The translations under genes and the position numbers were made by a program. DNA of 64,000 nt from Allomeiothermus silvanus DSM 9946 (GTDB lineage: Bacteria > Deinococcota > Deinococci > Deinococcales > Thermaceae), in contig NC_014212.1 of assembly GCF_000092125.1 (NCBI RefSeq), positions 1,322,001 to 1,386,000 of the forward strand, read 5' to 3'. Of the stretch, positions 5,468-14,967 are shown in pieces (positions within the stretch are counted from its first letter, which is position 1; each line of letters starts with the position of its first letter). The notes beneath the pieces are model-generated. The model saw only the letters and a program-made list of their open reading frames with translations. It was not told the origin of the DNA and searched no databases.

Positions 5468-5512
5468 TGGTGGGCGCGATTGGACTCGAACCAACGACCC
5501 CTACCGTGTCAA
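5468..5512. repeat. Left attachment site: copy of the tRNA-Val 3' end
   Basis: 45 bases identical to 14891-14935, covering the anticodon stem's 3' side, T arm, acceptor 3' strand and CCA. The 5' half of a tRNA is absent here, so it is a displaced fragment, not a gene. Confidence 0.9.
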
Positions 5513-5643
5513 TGCTACCCGGCCACTCCCACAGCGTTATACAACACTCCACAACGCACCACACTAAGCCCGTCCTGAACGCAAAAGCTCGCTCTGATCT
5601 TCCCATGGCTTCCCATACCGTACCCCCCTATCCCAGCATGTAC

Positions 5644-5663
5644 ATTGCACCCTTATTGCACCC
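5644..5663. repeat. Left pair of putative integrase arm sites
   Basis: ATTGCACCC twice at an 11-base period (5644-5652, 5655-5663). The same pair with the same period occurs at the right end (14820-14839). Position and spacing fit arm-type binding sites of a tyrosine integrase; binding itself is inferred. Confidence 0.5.
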
Positions 5664-5683
5664 TCTTTGCAAAACAAAGCGCT

Positions 5684-6733
5684 TTATTTTTTAGTTCGCT
5701 CGCGGGATCGGTGCGCCGCCATCCGACACGCCCCTGAGCAGTACCGGGCGGTGCTACGCGCCGGGATGAAGGACGCTCCGCAGTGCGCACAAGCCCTCGG
5801 GCCCGTCTTTCGGGAAAGCTCAAGCAGTGCGTTGTGATACGCGCCGATATAGCCTGGTATCGGTGGAGCTGAGCCTTCAGGTGCTCGGGTGTACACCAGC
5901 GGGCCCGGTATCTGTACCCCTCGCAAACCGGCTTCTCGCAGGTAGCCGCGTACTCGCGCGCGGTTGAGGTACTTCCTACCGCCATGCAGGTGCAGGACTC
6001 GAGCCGATAACTCTAGCACTGGTATGGAATCTATGGAAAGGATGCGCTCATGACGCTCCTGCTTCAACAACGAGTAACGCTTGTCCCACTCGGTCCCCCA
6101 TAGCCCGTAAATATCACGCCCCAGCGTTCGAAGCACGCCGTCTAAGTCCTTACCGCCATAGCTCAATAACTCTGACCAAAACCTCACCCCGAGCGTGGCC
6201 CAAATCCACCCCTCTAGAGAGTCCTGTGGGTTTCGAAGGTGGAACTCAAAGGCCCCTACCTCTAAATCGGCTTCTGGCGGTAACGGGTGGGGTTCGAGTA
6301 GACCAATCCGTTCCACCTCTTTGGTAACAGATTTCTTGAAGGGGCCAAACGTTTTTAAGTCTGAGCATAGTGCCTTGTAAAGCCGGTTGAAGCCTACCAC
6401 CGCACTGGTTGGTTTTCCCATCCCCTCCCAGTGTTGCATATATCCCCACTGGAAAAAGGGCGGCATCGCTGTGGTCAGGCGTGGGTATGACCAATGCGAG
6501 GGAGGGGGAGGCAGATCGCGCATGGCGGGGTGTGCGCGCACAGCTTCATAAGCGTGTTCTCGAGAACGCTTTCCCACATACACGCTCCAAAACACTTTTG
6601 AAAGTACTTCCTGTGCGCTGCTTTTCCGGGCCGTATCGAAGGGAAGCAGCTCCGAGGGGGTATCCACCCAAAGTACCGGGACCTGGTAGGGGGCTGGTGT
6701 GACGCTAAATGTGACGCTAAAAGCGGTAGACAC
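5684..6733 (-). CDS. Unknown element protein with C-terminal treble-clef type zinc finger
   Basis: About 349 residues. I do not recognise the main body. The C-terminus has CAHCGASF, then YCSGACRMAAHRSR: four cysteines spaced CX2C-X12-CX3C followed by basic residues, which suggests a nucleic-acid-binding zinc finger. The best start is GTG 6733, because a perfect TATAAT lies six bases upstream and no ribosome site precedes it, as in leaderless genes. It diverges from the excisionase gene and the two promoters overlap, so it could be a regulator of the element's lysogeny-like state, but that is inferred from position only. An upstream ATG at 6763 would add ten residues. Confidence 0.65.
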   Translation of the reverse strand: MSTAFSVTFSVTPAPYQVPVLWVDTPSELLPFDTARKSSAQEVLSKVFWSVYVGKRSREHAYEAVRAHPAMRDLPPPPSHWSYPRLTTAMPPFFQWGYMQHWEGMGKPTSAVVGFNRLYKALCSDLKTFGPFKKSVTKEVERIGLLEPHPLPPEADLEVGAFEFHLRNPQDSLEGWIWATLGVRFWSELLSYGGKDLDGVLRTLGRDIYGLWGTEWDKRYSLLKQERHERILSIDSIPVLELSARVLHLHGGRKYLNRARVRGYLREAGLRGVQIPGPLVYTRAPEGSAPPIPGYIGAYHNALLELSRKTGPRACAHCGASFIPARSTARYCSGACRMAAHRSRERTKK

Positions 6734-6768
6734 GCATGGATTATAGCGCAATGATGGGGGCATGAAAG
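6727..6768. promoter_or_regulatory. Overlapping divergent leaderless promoters of the element
   Basis: Rightward: TAGACA (6727-6732), 17 bases, AATGAT (6750-6755), six bases, ATG 6762. Leftward: TATAAT (rc of 6740-6745), six bases, GTG 6733, with a weak CTTTCA at rc of 6763-6768. Each gene's start codon lies in or against the other's -35 box, so the two promoters should exclude each other. No direct evidence of activity. Confidence 0.5.
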
Positions 6769-7028
6769 TCACGAAAAAACGCGAGACTGAAAAGCGGCTT
6801 CTGGACATACAGGACATCCGGCAGGAATACGGGCTAGGGCGGCAAACCTGCTATTTGGTTCTCCGTCTTATGCCTACCGTGCGGGTGGGTTCTCGCTACA
6901 TGGTGCGTCGAGAAGACCTCGAGGCCTATCTCGAGCAGGCCGCCCGTGAGGGCCGCGACATCCGGGCAGAGGCTTTAGCTGCCACCCGCAGAAGCAAAAC
7001 CCCCGCCGGGGCAGGCGGGGGGCGCTAA
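6762..7028 (+). CDS. Excisionase-type helix-turn-helix protein
   Basis: An 88-residue MerR-like winged-helix protein of the excisionase (HTH_17) class: LLDIQDIRQEYGLGRQTCY followed by VGSRYMVRREDLEAYLEQ, the usual turn plus recognition helix and wing. Such proteins either direct integrase towards excision or repress element promoters. It is the first gene of the rightward cluster that ends with the integrase. The GGGGG before the ATG is too close for a normal ribosome site, and an AATGAT box lies six bases upstream, so leaderless translation is likely. The C-terminal tail (RRSKTPAGAGGGR) is basic and glycine-rich. Confidence 0.75.
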   Translation: MKVTKKRETEKRLLDIQDIRQEYGLGRQTCYLVLRLMPTVRVGSRYMVRREDLEAYLEQAAREGRDIRAEALAATRRSKTPAGAGGGR

Positions 7029-7040
7029 AGGTGGTGGACC

Positions 7041-7232
7041 ATGCGCGAGATCATTCTACTCGAGCTCCGCGAGATTCGCCGTCTTATAGACGGTGCGATG
7101 CTACAGTGCGGACGCTGCCCCCGCTGCGGCAGGCCCCTGCCCGCCCTCGAGCGATACACCCTCGAGCGCGATGAGGAGCCTGCGGTGTACTGCCCCTGCT
7201 GCGGGTCCGAGTGGGGGGTGCAGGATGCATAG
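7041..7232 (+). CDS. Small zinc-ribbon protein
   Basis: 63 residues with two CXXC knuckles, CGRCPRCGRPLP and YCPCCGSEW, the pattern of a zinc ribbon; an acidic N-terminal helix (MREIILLELREIRRLID) precedes it. An AAAGGTGG ribosome site lies upstream. It ends eight bases inside the PrimPol gene, so the two are probably translated together. A role as a DNA-binding accessory of the primase is a guess from position; function is unknown. Confidence 0.65.
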   Translation: MREIILLELREIRRLIDGAMLQCGRCPRCGRPLPALERYTLERDEEPAVYCPCCGSEWGVQDA

Positions 7233-8094
7233 CTCCATGACCGCCGCCCTCGAGTACGCCTCGATGGGCTACCCCGTGTTGCCCGTCGAGTCTGAATCCA
7301 AAAGACCTATCGCCTACCTAGCCCCGCACGGACTCCACAGCGCGTCCACGAACCCTCGCATCATCTCGGCCTGGTATCGGCTCGAGCCTACGGCTAACGT
7401 CGCCGTCGTGCCGCCCGCCGGGGTCGTGATCCTCGACCTCGACAGCCGCGCCTCCTGGGAGTCGTTAACTCGAAGCTTCCCGGCCCTGCTCGAGGCGCCC
7501 CACAGCCACACCCCTCGAGGTGGCACACACTGCTACCTGCGCGTCCCCTCCGGCGTCGCCCTGCGGGCCTGCTCCACCGGGTCCTTACCCGCGTTCGAGG
7601 TTAAGCGTAGCGGCCTGGCCTACGTGCTCGAGGCCCCCAGCCGGACGGAGCGCGGGGCGTACTCCTGGGCCGTCCCTCTGCGCCGGCCCTCCGAGTTGCC
7701 CCTAATGCCCTACGCCATCTTGGCGCGGCTGCGGGTACTGGTAACCAAACCAGTCCAGGCCGATAGACTCAGCGACACCGCGCTACGCGCCCGCCTGGAG
7801 CAAGCCGCCCACCAGGTGCGCCACGCCGCGCCGGGGAGCCGCCACGTCACCTTGATCCGACAGGCCGCCCGCGTGGGCTCGCTGCTGCCGCGCGGCCTCG
7901 ACGCCTCTTCGGCCCGGGACGCGTTGTTACGGGCCGCCCTGGACGCGGGCCTGCCCCGCCACGAGGCCGAGGCCGCCATCCGCTGGGGACTCGAGCGCGG
8001 CAAAGATACCCCGGCATTGGTGCGGGAACTCCCACCCCGCCTTCGTCTTTGGATAAACCGTCGTGAACGCTTGGAGGTGCGGCGTGAAGGCTGA
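7225..8094 (+). CDS. Bifunctional DNA primase/polymerase (PrimPol)
   Basis: 289 residues of the Prim-Pol family (archaeo-eukaryotic primase superfamily) found in plasmids, phages and integrated elements; makes primers and can extend DNA. The N-terminal domain shows YPVLPVESESKRPI, the metal-binding VVILDLDS (about 67-74), the catalytic TPRGGTHCYLR (about 96-106) and FEVKRSGLAYVLEAPS; a helical PriCT-like part (about 195-260) follows. Start ATG 7225, overlapping the zinc-ribbon gene; ATG 7237 is an alternative. No helicase domain is fused; the ATPase next door would supply it. The stop overlaps the ATPase start by 11 bases. Confidence 0.85.
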   Translation: MHSSMTAALEYASMGYPVLPVESESKRPIAYLAPHGLHSASTNPRIISAWYRLEPTANVAVVPPAGVVILDLDSRASWESLTRSFPALLEAPHSHTPRGGTHCYLRVPSGVALRACSTGSLPAFEVKRSGLAYVLEAPSRTERGAYSWAVPLRRPSELPLMPYAILARLRVLVTKPVQADRLSDTALRARLEQAAHQVRHAAPGSRHVTLIRQAARVGSLLPRGLDASSARDALLRAALDAGLPRHEAEAAIRWGLERGKDTPALVRELPPRLRLWINRRERLEVRREG

Positions 8095-8107
8095 TTTTCG
8101 ACACCTT
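8084..8107 (+). pseudogene. First eight codons of the interrupted ATPase gene
   Basis: GTG 8084, preceded by GGAGG at a normal spacing and overlapping the PrimPol stop, reads VKADFRHL up to the insertion. Removing the IS and one ACCTT copy joins it in frame to ATT at 9205. This is the native start of the downstream ATPase. Confidence 0.8.
8103..8107. repeat. 5-bp target duplication, left of IS701-like copy 1
   Basis: ACCTT here and again at 9200-9204 directly after the IS. Confidence 0.85.
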
Positions 8108-9199
8108 TAGGAGTTACGCAGTTGCAGTTGACTGGACATTCTTCTGTGTGCTAGGAGGAGAGTGCTTAGCCAAGCTTCTCCAAAGGGGGTGATGCCCATG
8201 AACCCACCGAAGTGCGATGACCTGGACTACATCCACTTTCTCATCGCCGCTCAGCGGGTCTTCACCTGTACCGAGGCCGCTCGCTGTAGTCCAAAGGAGA
8301 AGAGCCCTCCCGCCCATGATGCCTTTACCCGCCTGCTGCAAAGACAGCCGCCCGACACGGCGGCGCTGTGGCAGGAGGCCAAGGCCTTCGTGAAGCTCAG
8401 GGAGGGGCTGCTGATCCTGGACGACACCACCCTGGATAAGCCCTACGCTCGGGACATGGATCTGGTGAGTTACCACTGGAGCGGCAAACACCAAAGGGTG
8501 GTTAGGGGCATCGCCCTCATGACCCTGCTGTGGACGGAGGGGCAGGCCCTGATCCCCTGCGACTTTCGGGTCTACGACAAGCCCCAGGATGGGAAGAGCA
8601 AAAACGACCACTTTCAGACCATGCTCCAGAAAGCGAAGGAGCGGGGGTTTCAGCCGGAATATGTCCTGATGGACAGCTGGTATGCCAGCTTGGAGAACCT
8701 CAAGGCCATAGTCAGCTTTGGCTGGCGGTTTCTGACGCGGCTGAAGGGCAACCGCCTGGTCAACCCGGAGGGGAAGGGAAATGTACCCATCCGTGAGGTG
8801 GAAATCCCTGGGGAGGGGAGGGTGGTTCATCTTCGGGGTTTTGGGTTCGTGAGGGTGTTCCGAACGCTCTCCAAGGACGGGGAGGCGGAGTACTGGGCCA
8901 CGAACCATCTGGGGATGAGCGAAGAGAAGCGGGCGGAGTTAGAGCGGCAAGGATGGGGGATCGAAGTGTACCATCGGGGGCTCAAGCAGTGCTGTGGGGT
9001 GGAGCGGGCCCAGGTGAGGAAGGCGGTCTCCATCCTGCGGCACCTCCTCCTGGCTTTGCGGGCCTTCCTCCGGCTGGAGGTCTACCGGCTGCGCAGGGGG
9101 GTGAGCTGGTACGAGGCCAAGGCGTCCATTGTTCGCGAGGCAATACGAAGTTATCTCGCCCATCCCCTCCACATCCTTCAGCCAACTGCGTAAGTCCTA
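8108..9199 (+). mobile_element. IS701-like insertion sequence, copy 1 (1092 bp)
   Basis: Ends are imperfect inverted repeats (TAGGAGTTACGCAGTTG and TAGGACTTACGCAGTTG) flanked by the 5-bp duplication ACCTT. It is the same length as copy 2 at 52570-53661. It has inserted after codon 8 of the element's ATPase gene, in the same direction as the operon. Confidence 0.92.
8198..9193 (+). CDS. IS701-like transposase
   Basis: DDE transposase of the IS4/IS701 type: LLILDDTTLDKPYA (first Asp), VLMDSWYAS (second Asp), and IEVYHRGLKQCCGVE (Glu region). Start taken as ATG 8198, eight bases after GGGGG; an upstream GTG 8162 is also in frame. Ends a few bases inside the right inverted repeat. Differs from copy 2 by one residue (Glu here, Gly there, in KRAxLERQG). 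Confidence 0.9.
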   Translation: MNPPKCDDLDYIHFLIAAQRVFTCTEAARCSPKEKSPPAHDAFTRLLQRQPPDTAALWQEAKAFVKLREGLLILDDTTLDKPYARDMDLVSYHWSGKHQRVVRGIALMTLLWTEGQALIPCDFRVYDKPQDGKSKNDHFQTMLQKAKERGFQPEYVLMDSWYASLENLKAIVSFGWRFLTRLKGNRLVNPEGKGNVPIREVEIPGEGRVVHLRGFGFVRVFRTLSKDGEAEYWATNHLGMSEEKRAELERQGWGIEVYHRGLKQCCGVERAQVRKAVSILRHLLLALRAFLRLEVYRLRRGVSWYEAKASIVREAIRSYLAHPLHILQPTA

Positions 9200-9204
9200 A
9201 CCTT

Positions 9205-11175
9205 ATTGACTCGCTAACCCTCGAGGACTGGGCCACCAGATCCTTGGAACTTTTCGAACTAATAGTTAGTAGCGGACTCAACGCGGTTGAGACCGACGTC
9301 GTGCTGAAATCCGTCGCTGCTAAGCTCAAAACCCCGATTGCCGCCGTGCGTAAGGATTTTCAGGTCTATTTAGGGGAATCGCCAAACCTCGACCAGAACG
9401 CCGCCGGGGAAGCGGTGCGGTTAGCGCTGGAAGCTGGTTTAGAGCTATGGCACACTCCCGAAGGTGACGGATGGACTTCAGTCGCCGTTGGTGGGGCGCT
9501 TCATCATCTTTCCATTCGGCATAAAGACTTTCGCACGTGGCTATCCGGCATCTATTTCGAGAAAAACAACAAGCCTTTGTATGCACAAGCGCTGCAGGAC
9601 GCGCTAGCCGCGCTGGAAGCCCGAGCGCGGTTCCAAGGACCCGAGCATCCGGTGTACCTCCGGTTGGCGCATCACGAGGGGCACATATATTTCGACCTGT
9701 CCCGGCCCGACCGCCAGGTGGTCGAGATTACCCCTTCGGGCTGGCGGGTGATTCACTCGGAAGAGTGCCCGGTGCGCTTTCGCCGGACTCCGCATCAACT
9801 CCCACTACCACTACCTGAGCATGGAGGCAACCTCGAGGACTTCTTGAAGCTTTTACCGTTGCGGGAAGACCGCGACCGCGTGGTTTTGTTGGGCTGGCTC
9901 ATCGGCACGCTCAACCCACATGGCGGCTATCCCGTTCTCGTGTTTCTGGGGTCGAAAGGCGCGGGAAAAAGCTTTGCGACTAAGTTGCTAAAGAACCTGG
10001 TTGACCCCAGCAAAGCGCCTCTACGCTCGGAGCCGAGGGATGAAACCGACTTGATGGTGGCGGCTCACTCAAGTCACATCGTGGCGCTGGACAACTTGAG
10101 CGGCATTCCCCCCAAACTCTCCGACGCGGTGTGTCGGTTATCCACCGGCTCAGGCCTGGGCAGACGAGCGTTATACACCGACGCGGACGAGCACGTCTTG
10201 GAGGCTACCCGACCCGTTTTGATCACCAGTATTAGCCTGGGGCTGCTCCGGGACGACCTGGCAGACCGAGCGCTAACCCTGAACCTCGAGCGCATCGAGG
10301 ACACCGAGCGCAAACCCGAACGGGAGCTTTTGGCTGAGTTTGAACGCATCCGCGCTAAGACCCTGGGGGTCTTACTGGACGCAGCGGTCACGGCGCTAGC
10401 CAACCTGGAAACTACCTCCAGGGAGCTACCCCAACTCCCCCGGCTGGCAGACTGGGCCATCTGGGCTGAAGCCGCAGCACCGGCGTTGGGGCTCAAGCGC
10501 GGGGAGATCGTTGGGGCAACCTTTGCCGTTCAAGCTGGACTTGAGCAGGATTTGTTGGACAGCGACCCGATAGCGCGTGCCATCATTGAACTTACCCTTA
10601 CCTTCAGCGAGGGAGAGTGCCGGGAGTACACCACCTCCGAGCTTCTCAAGGAGCTTGAGGCCGCCGCAGGGTTAGCGGACAGCAACCGCAAGCCCGAGGG
10701 ATGGCCTAGAACGGCAGCGGGGTTGGGTAAGCATTTACCCCGACTTCAGACCGCGCTTCGGGGCGTGGGGGTGGCGATCAGGGGAACCCGTGACCCCCGA
10801 ACAAAGAACCTGCGGTGGTCGGTTTGTTTAGAAAATAGGGGGGAACAACCACCGCATCCACCGCAACCACCGCAAACAGCGTCCAGCACGACAGAAAATG
10901 TTGCGGTGGTTGGGCGGTGGGTTTCAGCCAAACCACCGCAACCACCGCTAAACCCCCCCATCTCGACGGTGGTTGCGGTGGATGACTTTTGGGGTTCACA
11001 ACAACCACCGCAAACAGAAACACCGTCCAGCACGGGTTCTGCGGTGGATGCGGTGGTTGCGGTGGTTGAGTACCCTCAATTTCTAAAAACAAACGACGCC
11101 CCTAAACCGCAAGGGTTGTTCGCCGGGTTGGATGACCCGACTCGTGAGGCAGAGGATGATGCGGACTACTTCTAA
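9205..11175 (+). CDS. AAA+/SF3-type replicative ATPase of the element, 5' end cut off by an IS
   Basis: 656 residues remain of a predicted 664-residue protein. Seen: a non-catalytic N-terminal part, a P-loop GSKGAGKS near residue 250, the Walker B-like HIVALDN near 292, and ITSISLGLLRDDLADRA further on, the pattern of plasmid and phage helicase-like ATPases that act with PrimPol. The last 110 residues are a Pro/Gln-rich linker (PPHPPQPPQT and similar) encoded by repeats. The IS701-like element separates it from its GTG 8084 and ribosome site. The frame stays open back into the IS (to an ATG at 8953), and TTG 9244 or GTG 9301 could restart translation, so a shortened product may still be made. 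Confidence 0.75.
   Translation: MDSLTLEDWATRSLELFELIVSSGLNAVETDVVLKSVAAKLKTPIAAVRKDFQVYLGESPNLDQNAAGEAVRLALEAGLELWHTPEGDGWTSVAVGGALHHLSIRHKDFRTWLSGIYFEKNNKPLYAQALQDALAALEARARFQGPEHPVYLRLAHHEGHIYFDLSRPDRQVVEITPSGWRVIHSEECPVRFRRTPHQLPLPLPEHGGNLEDFLKLLPLREDRDRVVLLGWLIGTLNPHGGYPVLVFLGSKGAGKSFATKLLKNLVDPSKAPLRSEPRDETDLMVAAHSSHIVALDNLSGIPPKLSDAVCRLSTGSGLGRRALYTDADEHVLEATRPVLITSISLGLLRDDLADRALTLNLERIEDTERKPERELLAEFERIRAKTLGVLLDAAVTALANLETTSRELPQLPRLADWAIWAEAAAPALGLKRGEIVGATFAVQAGLEQDLLDSDPIARAIIELTLTFSEGECREYTTSELLKELEAAAGLADSNRKPEGWPRTAAGLGKHLPRLQTALRGVGVAIRGTRDPRTKNLRWSVCLENRGEQPPHPPQPPQTASSTTENVAVVGRWVSAKPPQPPLNPPISTVVAVDDFWGSQQPPQTETPSSTGSAVDAVVAVVEYPQFLKTNDAPKPQGLFAGLDDPTREAEDDADYF
10812..11065. 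repeat. Cluster of GCGGTGG / CCACCGC repeats, candidate iterons
   Basis: GCGGTGG occurs at 10812, 10903, 10914, 10975, 11041, 11050, 11059 and its complement at 10849, 10858, 10867, 10933, 10942, 11005: thirteen copies in 254 bases, several in exact 9-base tandem, in alternating orientation so that large hairpins can form. They lie in the coding sequence for the ATPase C-terminal linker. They may only reflect a Pro/Gln linker, or serve as a replication origin. Confidence 0.6.
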
Positions 11176-13207
11176 CCCGGCAGGTCTACTCGAGACCTTG
11201 GCGCAGCGTAAGGCTACACTGGAGCGCCACGGCAACGTCTTGCGGGTTAGTCCTAAGGGTATAGCTTTGGGGCTGGAGGTATCTATCACCGAGCACAAAC
11301 CCGCCTTGCTCGAACTTCTCGACCTGGCCGGGGGCCGTCTCAACCCCGAGGAGCTTTCCGACCTGGCCGCTCTGTCCAAAGACTACGGACTAACCGCTGT
11401 AATGCGAGCGCTGAGGCAAAAGCTTAGAAAAGATCGGGGAGCAATAGCCGTAAACGCCGCACAGGGCGCTAAAACCGTTGCGGCTATTGTATCGGTGGGA
11501 GATAGTACATCGCCGCAAACGCCGCAAACGCCGCAAGCGTCGCAACTCATCACCCGCCCATCAGACCTCGAGGCCCTGCCACCCCGCCTGATGGCCGCGC
11601 CGGTGCTGGGGCTCGACCTCGAGACCACCGGACTGGACCCCCACCAGGACCGGCCCCGGCTGCTGAGCCTGAGTACGGAGCGGGATACCTACCTCGTGGA
11701 CCTGTTCGCCCTACCCCATGCCCTCGAGGCCCTGCGGCCCCTCTTCGAGGCCAAGACCGGCCCGGTTCTGGTAGGCCATAACCTCAAGTTCGACCTCGCC
11801 TTTCTCCTCAAAGCCGGGCTGTGGCCCGAGGGCCGGCGGCTCTGGTGCACCGGCCTGGCCCACCAAGTCATTCACGCCCGGTCCCGGATGCCTGCCCTGG
11901 CCGATCTGGTACCGGGCCTGGATAAGCGTCTGCAAACCTCCGACTGGTCCGGCCCCATCAGCGAGGCCCAGCTGGCCTATGCCGCTAGAGACACGCAGGT
12001 GCTCCTGCCTCTATACCACCAGCAGCAGGAGGAATCCCGGCGGCTGGGCATCGGGAAGGTGTTGGAGATCGAGTCCCGCGCCCTGCCTGCCGTGGCCTGG
12101 ATGGGGCTCATGGGCGTGCCCTTCAATCCCGAGCGCTGGCTAGCGACAGCCAAGGAGGCCGAGCTTAGCGCCCAGGAAGCCCTGAAGCGACTCGACTGGC
12201 GTACCAACTGGGACAGCCCCAAGCAGGTGCTAGAGGCCCTGCGCCGGGCGGGGATCGAGCTAAGCGATACCCGGGAAGAGACTCTGTCCCGTCACCGCGA
12301 GCACCCCACCGTGGCGGCCCTGCTAGCCTACCGGGAGCACCGCAAGAGACAGAGCACCTACGGCGCGGCCTGGCTCGAGAACCTGCACCCCCTCACCGGT
12401 CGCATTCACCCTTCCTGGCAGCAAATCGGGGCCGAGTCGGGACGAATGTCCTGCTCCAGGCCCAACCTCCAGCAGGTGCCCAGAGAGCCCGCCTACCGCG
12501 CGTGCTTCCAGGCCCCAGGGGGCCGGGTGCTCATCAAAGCCGACTATTCGCAGATCGAGCTACGGCTTGCCGCGCAAATCGCCGGGGAAAAGCGCATGCT
12601 CGAGGCCTTCGAGCAGGGTGAGGACTTGCACACCCTCACCGCCCGGCTCGTCACCGGCAAGGCCGAGCCCAGCCGGGAAGACAGACAGCTAGCCAAGGCC
12701 CTTAACTTCGGCCTGCTCTACGGCATGGGGTCCGAGGGGCTGCGCACCTACGCCCGCGCGAACTACGGCCTGGAACTCTCCCCCCAGGAGGCCGAGGCCC
12801 TGCGCGAGGCTTTCTTCAGGGCCTACCCCGGCCTACGAGCCTGGCACCGCCACCAACCCGAGGGCGAGGTCGAGGTCAGAACCCTGGCCGGTAGGCGTCG
12901 GGTCACGGGCCGTTACACCGAGAAGTTGAACACCCCGGTCCAGGGATCGGGCGCGGACGGGCTGAAGCTGACCCTGGCCCTGCTCTACGAGAGTCGTCAA
13001 AAGGCCCCGGGCTGTTTCCCGGTGTTGGCGGTGCATGACGAGATCGTCATCGAGGCCCCAGCCGATGGGGTAAGCGCCGCCTATGCCTGGCTCACCCGGT
13101 CCATGCGGGAGGGCATGGAGGCCATCCTTACCAAGGTGCCGGTGCTGGTGGAGGTCGGGGTGTGCGAGGATTGGGGTGTAACTGAATGGGAACTGGTGGT
13201 GATATAA
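11156..13207 (+). CDS. Family A DNA polymerase with 3'-5' exonuclease, element-encoded
   Basis: 683 residues. It lacks the 5'-3' nuclease of chromosomal PolA. Order: an N-terminal 50-residue part resembling TubC-type docking domains (LLETLAQRKATLERHGNVL), a PQTPQTPQASQ linker, a 3'-5' exonuclease domain (LGLDLETTGLDP near 152, GHNLKFD, YAARDTQ) and a polymerase domain with motif A DYSQIELR (about 462), motif B RQLAKALNFGLLYG (about 512) and motif C VHDEIVIE (about 626). All catalytic acids are visible, so it should be active with proofreading. ATG 11156 has GAGG six bases upstream and overlaps the ATPase stop by 20 bases. Likely extends primers from the PrimPol. Confidence 0.88.
   Translation: MMRTTSNPAGLLETLAQRKATLERHGNVLRVSPKGIALGLEVSITEHKPALLELLDLAGGRLNPEELSDLAALSKDYGLTAVMRALRQKLRKDRGAIAVNAAQGAKTVAAIVSVGDSTSPQTPQTPQASQLITRPSDLEALPPRLMAAPVLGLDLETTGLDPHQDRPRLLSLSTERDTYLVDLFALPHALEALRPLFEAKTGPVLVGHNLKFDLAFLLKAGLWPEGRRLWCTGLAHQVIHARSRMPALADLVPGLDKRLQTSDWSGPISEAQLAYAARDTQVLLPLYHQQQEESRRLGIGKVLEIESRALPAVAWMGLMGVPFNPERWLATAKEAELSAQEALKRLDWRTNWDSPKQVLEALRRAGIELSDTREETLSRHREHPTVAALLAYREHRKRQSTYGAAWLENLHPLTGRIHPSWQQIGAESGRMSCSRPNLQQVPREPAYRACFQAPGGRVLIKADYSQIELRLAAQIAGEKRMLEAFEQGEDLHTLTARLVTGKAEPSREDRQLAKALNFGLLYGMGSEGLRTYARANYGLELSPQEAEALREAFFRAYPGLRAWHRHQPEGEVEVRTLAGRRRVTGRYTEKLNTPVQGSGADGLKLTLALLYESRQKAPGCFPVLAVHDEIVIEAPADGVSAAYAWLTRSMREGMEAILTKVPVLVEVGVCEDWGVTEWELVVI
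11511..11544 (+). repeat. Tandem 9-bp GCCGCAAAC-type repeats inside the polymerase gene
   Basis: Three to four tandem units of CCGCAAACG/CCGCAAGCG encode the PQTPQTPQASQ linker. The CCGCAAAC core is shared with the repeats in the ATPase gene (near 10870 and 11008). Confidence 0.5.
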
Positions 13208-13306
13208 CCCGCTTGAGCACCAGCGCCGCCCGGCTGCTGCTCGAGCTTGAAGCGCCCCAGCCCGGTGAGGAGCCCATGCCGCGTCAACACAGGAGGTAAC
13301 CAGTCT

Positions 13307-13576
13307 ATGCCCAGGAAGAAGCGACAGCAAAAGCCCGCAACCCCGCCCGACCCCGAGTCGCTGCGTCTCGAGGATGGCCGCCGGGTCCGAATTTCGGTCT
13401 ATGCCGATACTGCCGCCGAAGCCGAGCGCGGGGAACACCAACCGGCGCATACCGTCGCGTTTTGGAGCATCCCCAGCTGGGCCGCCCTGCTCGAGTCGTT
13501 TACCCCAAAACGCCGGGGTGAGGTGTTTGAGACCGGGCTGAAGGCCCTGGGGATGGAGGTAGGGGATGGCAAGTAG
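13307..13576 (+). CDS. Small charged protein upstream of the integrase
   Basis: 89 residues starting MPRKKRQQKPATPP, with a strong AGGAGGT ribosome site six bases before the ATG. No family recognised: a basic N-terminus, then RLEDGRRVRISVYAD and an alpha-helical end (ALLESFTPKRRGEVFETGLKAL). Its stop lies eleven bases inside the integrase gene, so it is translated together with it. It might help integrase or repress it; function unknown. Confidence 0.6.
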   Translation: MPRKKRQQKPATPPDPESLRLEDGRRVRISVYADTAAEAERGEHQPAHTVAFWSIPSWAALLESFTPKRRGEVFETGLKALGMEVGDGK

Positions 13577-14816
13577 AAAACGCCCTTTGGAGAAGCGCCC
13601 CCATGGATCAGGCACCAAGCCCACCAAGCGCGGGCACCAGTGGACGATGCAAGTCACCCTGGGACGCCGCGCGGATGGGAAGCTCGACCGCCGCCGGGTG
13701 TTCGGGCTGACCCCCGAGGACTGCTTGCAGAAAGCCCGCGAGCTTCAGGTAGCCGCTGCCCAAGGGATGCTCGCTACCCACGAGCGCACGACGGTTGCAG
13801 AGTGGTTGGGGATATGGCTCGGAGGTAAAGCCACCCAAGCCGCCCCCACTTACCGGCTCAAACTCGAGGCCCACGCCAAGCACATTACCCAACATTTGGG
13901 GAGCATGGAGCTTCGCAAGCTGAGGCCTGGGCACGTTCACACCTTCGCCCGCGCCCTGGAGGCTAAGGGGTTAGCCCCTTCCTACCGCCGTGAGGTGCTG
14001 AGCACCCTCGAGGCCGCCCTTGAACGTGCCGTGGTCATGGAGCTCATCCCGCGCAACGTAGCCCGCCCGGTGAAGCTCGAGGCCGCCCCCGCGACCCGCA
14101 AGGTCAAAGCCTGGGACGCCGCGACCGTGGCCCGTTTCCTCGAGGTGGCCCGCCCCTACCGGCTGTATCCGCTGTTCTATCTGGGGTTTGCCACCGGCCT
14201 GAGGCGAGAGGAGCTGCTAGGGTTGCGTTGGGTGGACATAGACCTAGAGGCCCGCACCCTGCGGGTGGAGCAGACCCTAACCCCGGACAAGGGCGGTGTC
14301 CACATCGGCCCGCCCAAGACCCGCACCAGCCGCCGGGTGGTGGGCTTCGGGCCGGACGTGGCCGCCGTGCTGGAGGAATGGCGGGCCAAGCTAGCCGAAG
14401 AGCGCCGCATCCTGGGGAAGGAGTGGTACGATTCGGGGTTGGTGTTCCCCTCGAGCACCGGCCACCCCCTGCACCCGCGCAACGTGAACCGGGACATGGG
14501 CCAGATCATCAAGACCCACAACCGCAAGCGGGTCAAGGAGATTCGGAGGGCCATGCAGGGACAGCCCGAAGAGGAAATAAAGCGGGCCATTGAAGAGGTC
14601 ATGCTCCCCCACCTGAGCCCGCACATGATGCGCCATACCCACGCCACGCTACTCGCGCAAAAGACCCGGCAAATCGAGCTGGTGAGCCGCCGCCTGGGGC
14701 ACTCCCGCCCCTCCGTCACGCTCGACATTTACCGCCACATCGCGACGTGGGAGCTTGAAGAGGTGGCCCTACCCCTGAGCGAGCTGCTGAACCCTACCCC
14801 CCGCACCCTGAACTGA
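13566..14816 (+). CDS. int: Tyrosine recombinase/integrase of the element
   Basis: 416 residues. Catalyses site-specific recombination between the tRNA-Val attB and the element. N-terminal AP2-like DNA-binding part (about 20-70) and SAM-like core-binding domain (about 75-170) with TVAEWLGIWL; catalytic domain with the first Arg in TGLRREELLGLRW (about 212), the box 2 motif HMMRHTHATLL (about 353-363), RRLGHSRPSVT, and the tyrosine in LDIYRHI (about 388). The complete RHRH/Y set is visible. It lies directly beside the intact tRNA gene, as expected for the att-proximal integrase. Start ATG 13566 overlaps the preceding gene. Confidence 0.92.
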   Translation: MASRKRPLEKRPHGSGTKPTKRGHQWTMQVTLGRRADGKLDRRRVFGLTPEDCLQKARELQVAAAQGMLATHERTTVAEWLGIWLGGKATQAAPTYRLKLEAHAKHITQHLGSMELRKLRPGHVHTFARALEAKGLAPSYRREVLSTLEAALERAVVMELIPRNVARPVKLEAAPATRKVKAWDAATVARFLEVARPYRLYPLFYLGFATGLRREELLGLRWVDIDLEARTLRVEQTLTPDKGGVHIGPPKTRTSRRVVGFGPDVAAVLEEWRAKLAEERRILGKEWYDSGLVFPSSTGHPLHPRNVNRDMGQIIKTHNRKRVKEIRRAMQGQPEEEIKRAIEEVMLPHLSPHMMRHTHATLLAQKTRQIELVSRRLGHSRPSVTLDIYRHIATWELEEVALPLSELLNPTPRTLN

Positions 14817-14819
14817 TGG

Positions 14820-14839
14820 ATTGCACCCAGATTGCACCC
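14820..14839. repeat. Right pair of putative integrase arm sites
   Basis: ATTGCACCC at 14820-14828 and 14831-14839, an 11-base period, matching 5644-5663 in sequence, spacing and orientation; it lies between the integrase stop and the right att core. Confidence 0.5.
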
Positions 14840-14844
14840 AAAAA

Positions 14845-14876
14845 CCCCCTTATGCACTCTTTGCATAAGGGGATTT
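14845..14876. terminator. Bidirectional terminator at the right end of the element
   Basis: Perfect 11-base stem CCCCTTATGCA / TGCATAAGGGG with ATTTT on the rightward side and GGGGGTTTTT on the leftward side. It ends the integrase operon and, on the minus strand, the tRNA-Cys/tRNA-Val transcript whose own terminator now lies at 5442-5464. Confidence 0.8.
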
Positions 14877-14890
14877 TCTCGTTGGGAACG

Positions 14891-14935
14891 TGGTGGGCGC
14901 GATTGGACTCGAACCAACGACCCCTACCGTGTCAA
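14891..14935. repeat. Right attachment site inside tRNA-Val
   Basis: Identical over 45 bases to 5468-5512; forms the 3' part of the functional tRNA-Val gene. Confidence 0.9.
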
Positions 14936-14967
14936 GGTAGTGCTCTAGCCAGCTGAGCTACGCGCCC
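14891..14967 (-). tRNA. tRNA-Val (GAC anticodon), integration target
   Basis: Read on the minus strand: acceptor GGGCGCG pairs with CGCGCCC, CCA is encoded, D arm GCTCAGCTGGCTAGAGC, anticodon loop TTGACAC (GAC), T arm GGTTCGAGTCC. The element has replaced its 3' part with an identical copy, so the tRNA stays functional. Confidence 0.93.

Follow-up and report, generated by a model that had tools for sequence, protein, structure and literature searches.

A candidate iteron replication origin, conserved in layout and variable in repeat word, at the 3′ end of an initiator-like ATPase gene in a Thermaceae integrative element

The 64-kb stretch of DNA that we analysed (the window) carries an integrated element in which a dense field of short repeats occupies the 3′ end of an ATPase gene. 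We conclude that this field is probably the iteron replication origin of the excised element, embedded in the gene of its own initiator. Iteron origins are recognized by short direct repeats next to or within an initiator gene, and this is the arrangement found here. A preliminary description of the same DNA had suggested a possible origin at this place; the suggestion is now supported by a freeze of synonymous sites in the field and by a DNA layout conserved among relatives. The element comprises the following features (window positions).

5468..14935, no strand: ICETh2-like element of about 9.4 kb, integrated at a tRNA-Val gene and bounded by a 45-bp direct repeat (5468-5512 and 14891-14935)
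6762-7028: excisionase-like HTH ORF, read from the ORF list
7098-7232: zinc-ribbon ORF of 44 aa, just 5′ of the PrimPol gene
7237..8094, plus strand: PrimPol (AEP primase-polymerase; Pfam PF09250, 2.2e-29 on ORF 7093-8094; starts read from the sequence)
8108..9200 (approximate ends), plus strand: insertion sequence (IS) breaking the 5′ end of the ATPase gene (DDE transposase; inverted ends TAGGAGTTACGCAGTTG / CAACTGCGTAAGTCCTA; duplicated ACCTT)
9250..11175, plus strand: replication-initiator-like P-loop ATPase gene, interrupted by the IS at its 5′ end; the product is homologous to PrimPol-associated ATPases borne on plasmids
10540..10842, plus strand: predicted winged-helix DNA-binding domain of the ATPase, directly before the field (AlphaFold2)
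11132..13207, plus strand: family A DNA polymerase gene after the field (PF00476, 7.6e-70; PF01612, 2.3e-22)
13566-14816: tyrosine integrase gene
14891-14967: tRNA-Val

The direct repeat corresponds to the 3′ end of the tRNA-Val gene, and this integration site, together with a PrimPol gene, a downstream ATPase gene and a tyrosine integrase gene, makes the element ICETh2-like. The ATPase has no Pfam match, and its sequence hits among solved structures were set aside as P-loop cross-matches, mostly to transporters. Comparison with M. rufus (L016), whose ATPase gene lacks the IS, places the insertion point ~14 codons into the gene; the ORF listed from 8953 therefore starts within the IS. Because the IS splits the start of the ATPase gene, the window copy of the ATPase, or of the whole element, may be inactive.

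All 13 exact 7-mers that the preliminary description had counted at 10812-11065 are present, 6 as CCACCGC and 7 as GCGGTGG. The field thus holds 13 of the 54 such 7-mers in the whole window, for which dinucleotide shuffles gave a total of 18.8. The strict 9-bp tandems that had been reported are likewise real, and run at 10846-10875 and 11040-11068. Both orientations occur, as had been stated, but they do not simply alternate: three copies run inward from the left and three from the right, with more copies between. Similarly, the region is coding, but what it encodes is the C-terminal end of the ATPase, a tail predicted to be disordered (pLDDT about 22) and not an inter-domain linker. The parts of the field are these.

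10827..10843, plus strand: left outer box TTTAGAAAA..GGGGGG, from the half-site alignment
10847..10873, plus strand: left iteron triplet, 3 x 9 bp, AACCACCGC / ATCCACCGC / AACCACCGC
10880..10890, plus strand: left near-palindromic box CGTCCAGCACG, at the same spacing in 30 half-sites
10903..10911, minus strand: inverted fourth iteron of the left half-site
10912..11002, no strand: inner iterons between the half-sites (7-mers at 10914, 10933, 10942 and 10975, and a degenerate copy near 10966)
11003..11011, plus strand: inverted fourth iteron of the right half-site
11024..11034, minus strand: right near-palindromic box (CGTCCAGCACG on the plus strand)
11041..11067, minus strand: right iteron triplet, 3 x 9 bp, GCGGTGGAT / GCGGTGGTT / GCGGTGGTT
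11073..11088, minus strand: right outer box CCC..TTTCTAAAA, from the half-site alignment

A reading of 10800-11110 revealed no clear A+T-rich unwinding stretch, just the short outer TTTAGAAA boxes. An unwinding stretch of this kind is common, though not universal, beside iterons, and we count its apparent lack against the origin reading.

Given that the field is an open reading frame and that 11 of the 13 7-mers share one frame (the copy at 10812 lies in another, inside LRW codons and outside the module), we considered whether selection on a low-complexity Pro/Gln/Val protein tail could have produced the DNA repeats as a by-product. When synonymous codons were redrawn according to the codon usage of the element, the mean number of 7-mers was 1.1 and the maximum 5 (5000 trials); when the field's own codons were permuted among equal residues, the mean was 3.5 and the maximum 8 (5000 trials). 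Since neither shuffle ever exceeded 8, the 13 observed are not forced by the encoded protein. The comparison of synonymous sites in related elements, which the preliminary description had proposed as a check, also favours an origin. Between the window and M. rufus there are 75 synonymous changes in about 400 sites of the ATPase gene upstream of the field, as against 0 in 66.7 sites within it (Fisher p = 6e-6). The 117 iteron bases are identical, and all 8 differences in the field are nonsynonymous and outside the iterons. Iteron bases are also spared in L017/L018 (0.076 vs 0.284), where suppression is limited to those bases, and in L025/L066 (0.036 vs 0.200), while L017/L019 are too similar for synonymous suppression to be judged. 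The more diverged pair L025/L026, in contrast, shows no synonymous suppression, and we count this, like the narrow extent of the suppression in L017/L018, against the origin reading. Overall, the repeats appear to be under selection on DNA rather than on protein, clearly so in the window/M. rufus pair and with mixed signals elsewhere. A protein-level repeat was rejected on the codon shuffles and the synonymous/nonsynonymous pattern. With synonymous sites frozen while amino acids change, both repeat orientations in use, relatives whose tails are quite different, and full or half modules that are non-coding in L022, L023 and L065, selection on the protein tail is a most improbable explanation for the repeats.

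A profile search of 50 Thermaceae genomes returned 15 ATPase loci, and in 12 of them a dense field of repeats marks the 3′ end of the ATPase gene; for two of these 12 (genome G065), the judgement rests on the Thermus arciformis records L017 and L018, assumed to be the same loci. In 11 the field overlaps the gene, and in L023 it sits just past the stop codon. The other three loci (L067, L068 and L069), which encode Hel-type ATPases in three Thermus genomes, have no iteron field near the gene. This counts against the origin reading, and those elements may start replication otherwise, or may not replicate. The preliminary description had held that relatives keeping the Pro/Gln tail and losing the DNA repeats would refute an origin; we saw the opposite, in that the DNA layout is kept, the tail is changed and some copies lie outside any gene. 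Six different 9-bp repeat words, with cores CCACCGC, CCCCCGC, CTACCGC, TAGCCGC, TGTCAC and CTCCGG, are found among the relatives.

AACCACCGC: window, M. rufus, L021
A[AT]CCCCCGC: L017, L018, L019
ATCTACCGC: L020
AATAGCCGC: L065
AAATGTCAC: L025, L026, L066
AATCTCCGG: L023

From the outside in, a half-site reads TTTAGAAA-GGGG-[9-mer x3]-6 bp-CGTCCWGGACG-about 11 bp-[inverted 9-mer], with nearly constant spacing in 30 half-sites, and the full field consists of two half-sites that face each other. The half-sites were chosen by visual inspection, guided mainly by the outer boxes and iterons, and they include several close relatives of one another, such that 30 overstates the number of independent cases. 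The roughly 11 bases between the box and the inverted 9-mer are often pyrimidine-rich. The box matches CGTCCWGGACG at 9 or more of 11 positions in 25 of the 30 half-sites; of random stretches, each scanned over 34 positions, about 4% reach this score. The box was discarded as a general genome motif: one-mismatch matches are common in the host (194 per strand vs 167 for the reversed control), and only its fixed place beside the iterons is therefore informative.

The module is found outside genes as well. In L065, a full module lies 5′ of the ATPase gene (515-725), and three non-coding half-modules lie between genes of the G020 element (L022). In L023 (9450-9900), the only same-genus relative compared, iterons AATCTCCGG and perfect CGTCCTGGACG boxes follow the ATPase stop codon. 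The G020 sequences (C18:284865-336280; L021, L034, L035 and L022) apparently form one large integrative element by rpsB, with PrimPol, ATPase and large transfer-like genes; the iterons of its ATPase gene recur about 41 kb away as intergenic arrays, with UvrD-like and sliding-clamp-like genes close by. Once the layout had been defined, two ATPase relatives (L111 and L112) were fetched from another family of the order; both carry repeats A[CT]CGTCAC at the matching position, and one of the two ends in TTTCTAAAG. The viral contigs had no ATPase relative and no exact half-site; three of them have CCACCGCA triplets but not the module.

Slippage can lengthen tandem 9-mers, and a neutral expansion, or mobile short repeats, might thus have generated such a field. 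We consider this exceedingly improbable, given that the identical layout is built from unrelated words in many elements, with the box at a fixed spacing. Moreover, this field is the only place in the 3.7-Mb host genome with exact tandem pairs GCGGTGGNTGCGGTGGNTG, and the best two matches to the half-site pattern CCGC-N5-CCGC-N6-CGTCCNGGACG were the field's own two halves. On the basis of these host genome searches, a neutral or genome-wide repeat was rejected.

The CCGCAAAC units that the preliminary description had noticed in the polymerase gene near 11514 are genuine. They are part of a degenerate half-module whose iterons are of a different class.

11427..11545, plus strand: degenerate half-module of a second iteron class, TTAGAAAAG..GGGG, AATAGCCG, CGCCGCAAA, matching the AATAGCCGC class of L065

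It also includes an inverted TGCGGCTATTG, and its box is poor (5/11). The polymerase gene of M. rufus differs in sequence at this point and lacks the half-module, which is probably either left over from another origin or a scar of recombination.

Evidence on the likely reader of the repeats came from L020 and L026. Their DNA is 91% identical over PrimPol and 89% identical from just past a TTTCTA box onward, yet there is no alignable DNA over the ATPase, the winged helix and the field, and the right edge of this divergent segment falls just after TTTCTA. In this pair, ATPase, winged helix and field were swapped as a block between flanks of about 90% identity. Given that repeat word and ATPase change in step, the iterons are likely to be read by the winged helix of the ATPase itself and not by the zinc-ribbon or PrimPol protein. 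In the same pair PrimPol and the box stay while the ATPase and the iterons change, a pattern that points to the box CGTCCWGGACG being read by something other than the ATPase. Our tentative interpretation, which we hold at somewhat less than even confidence, is that the site combines two codes. One would be a 9-bp word that varies, is recognized by the winged helix, determines specificity and is exchanged as a block with the initiator; the other would be an invariant CGTCCWGGACG at a fixed distance for a second factor, which might be PrimPol (priming or docking) or a host protein. The idea that the box is a PrimPol priming site is speculation, since TthPrimPol starts opposite TC and has a wide template specificity (PMC5141293). 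Were the two-code interpretation true, these elements would provide natural, interchangeable origin cassettes with different specificities that work at high temperature.

The winged helix itself rests on AlphaFold2 models, which were run on four sequences from the window and relatives. A first model of the whole ATPase was poor across most of its length, but a 106-residue piece (10540-10857) gave a mean pLDDT of 83.6 with the order H-H-E-H-H-E-E. A Foldseek comparison of this model with solved structures gave no significant match, which counts against the origin reading; several of the weak hits were winged-helix proteins. The predicted recognition helix has LPR where the words are CCGC or CTCCGG, and LKR, LRG or ISR where they are GTCAC, in a set of sequences too small for a claim.

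Sites bound by the ATPase could also serve copy control, incompatibility or autorepression and not origin opening. Iterons serve both purposes in known plasmids, and the arrays about 41 kb from the G020 ATPase gene are separate and non-coding, as extra control sites would be. However, this field is the only dense array of the window element, and for the related plasmid pWTY27 the minimal replicon was shown to include the iteron region (PMC3583192); we regard a purely regulatory role as unlikely. Partition proteins, too, use iterated sites of such size, which would allow for a centromere-like site or another segregation or transfer site. This alternative seems very unlikely to us, as no partition genes were recognized among the scanned element proteins in the window and the repeat word changes along with ATPase and winged helix.

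We therefore favour an iteron origin, which would operate as follows. After excision of the element, the ATPase would bind its own 9-bp iterons through the winged helix, assemble as ring helicases on the two half-sites and open the DNA. Replication would then be bidirectional, with primers made by PrimPol and extended by the polymerase of the element or of the host. The near-palindromic box, unchanged while the iterons vary, would be the contact of a second, conserved factor.

If confirmed, this would be the first candidate origin for the ICETh2-like PrimPol elements of Thermales, which have been studied for replication without a described origin. With at least six repeat words on one scaffold, it would also offer a way to learn how a winged-helix initiator reads DNA, a source of candidate thermophilic replicons, and a clear example of how a cis-acting site overlaps, and moves with, the gene of its presumed binding protein.

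We found no earlier report of such an origin in a search limited to open-licence papers. In SaPI-type systems, each Rep recognizes its own iterons. The pri-rep-ori region of SaPIs and the Cch/Cch2 systems of SCCmec, both from Staphylococcus, likewise combine a mobile element, a primase, an initiator helicase with a C-terminal DNA-binding domain, and iterons directly after the helicase gene. The SaPI Rep binds iterons just 3′ of rep via its C-terminal domain, and is thought to do so as two hexamers (PMC7581432). In contrast to SaPIs, the iterons described here are inside the 3′ coding end of the gene, they are accompanied by conserved near-palindromic and outer boxes, the primase is of the PrimPol type, and the ATPase has no Pfam match. 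The scanned element proteins include no phage-satellite packaging genes, and the host belongs to the Thermaceae and not to Staphylococcus.

The Streptomyces theta plasmid pFP11 shares a PrimPol, an ATPase homologue and iterons with our element. In pFP11 (L043) and in a plasmid of S. coelicoflavus (L042), the ATPase homologue comes after the PrimPol gene and before the iteron array. The pWTY27 locus comprises repA, a PrimPol-like repB and a 105-bp inverted repeat, and RepA binds the long inverted repeat (PMC3583192). The Rep proteins of pFP11 and pWTY27 bind their own iterons in vitro (PMC3583192), the pFP11 Rep presumably being the ATPase homologue. Both plasmids differ from the window element in that their iterons are non-coding and consist of other words, and the CGTCCWGGACG half-site layout was not seen in them, pWTY27 being compared by description only. 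A Chlorohelix plasmid has its iteron array directly 3′ of the ATPase gene, and the Methanothrix plasmid pH6Ac has repeats within it; in pH6Ac, GTTCGAGCAAA units also form a tandem array 5′ of the ATPase gene (L037:940-1020). The plasmid homologues L038, L039 and L040 and the phage homologue L044 have no comparable repeat field beside the ATPase.

The O protein of phage lambda loads the host helicase without being an ATPase itself. An O-type initiator that loads host DnaB is not what we found, as the initiator here is a P-loop ATPase. The lambda origin is nevertheless similar in that its iterons lie within the coding sequence of the initiator gene O (PMC5043065); it differs in having an A+T-rich stretch beside the iterons, and its proteins and repeats are unrelated to those of the window.

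Also among the closest known systems are ICETh2 of T. thermophilus HB27 and related Thermales elements, with the same tRNA-Val integration, a 45-47 bp repeat, PrimPol followed by Hel, and a tyrosine integrase (PMC7693054). The window element differs by its extra family A polymerase, and for ICETh2 no origin was described and iterons were unmentioned (PMC7693054). Replication of ICETh2 after excision was reported to be very low and independent of PrimPol (PMC7693054), and we count this against the origin reading. Iteron origins as such are thus known from SaPIs, pFP11/pWTY27 and lambda; what appears to be new here is a candidate origin that keeps its layout while its repeat word is swapped along with the initiator.
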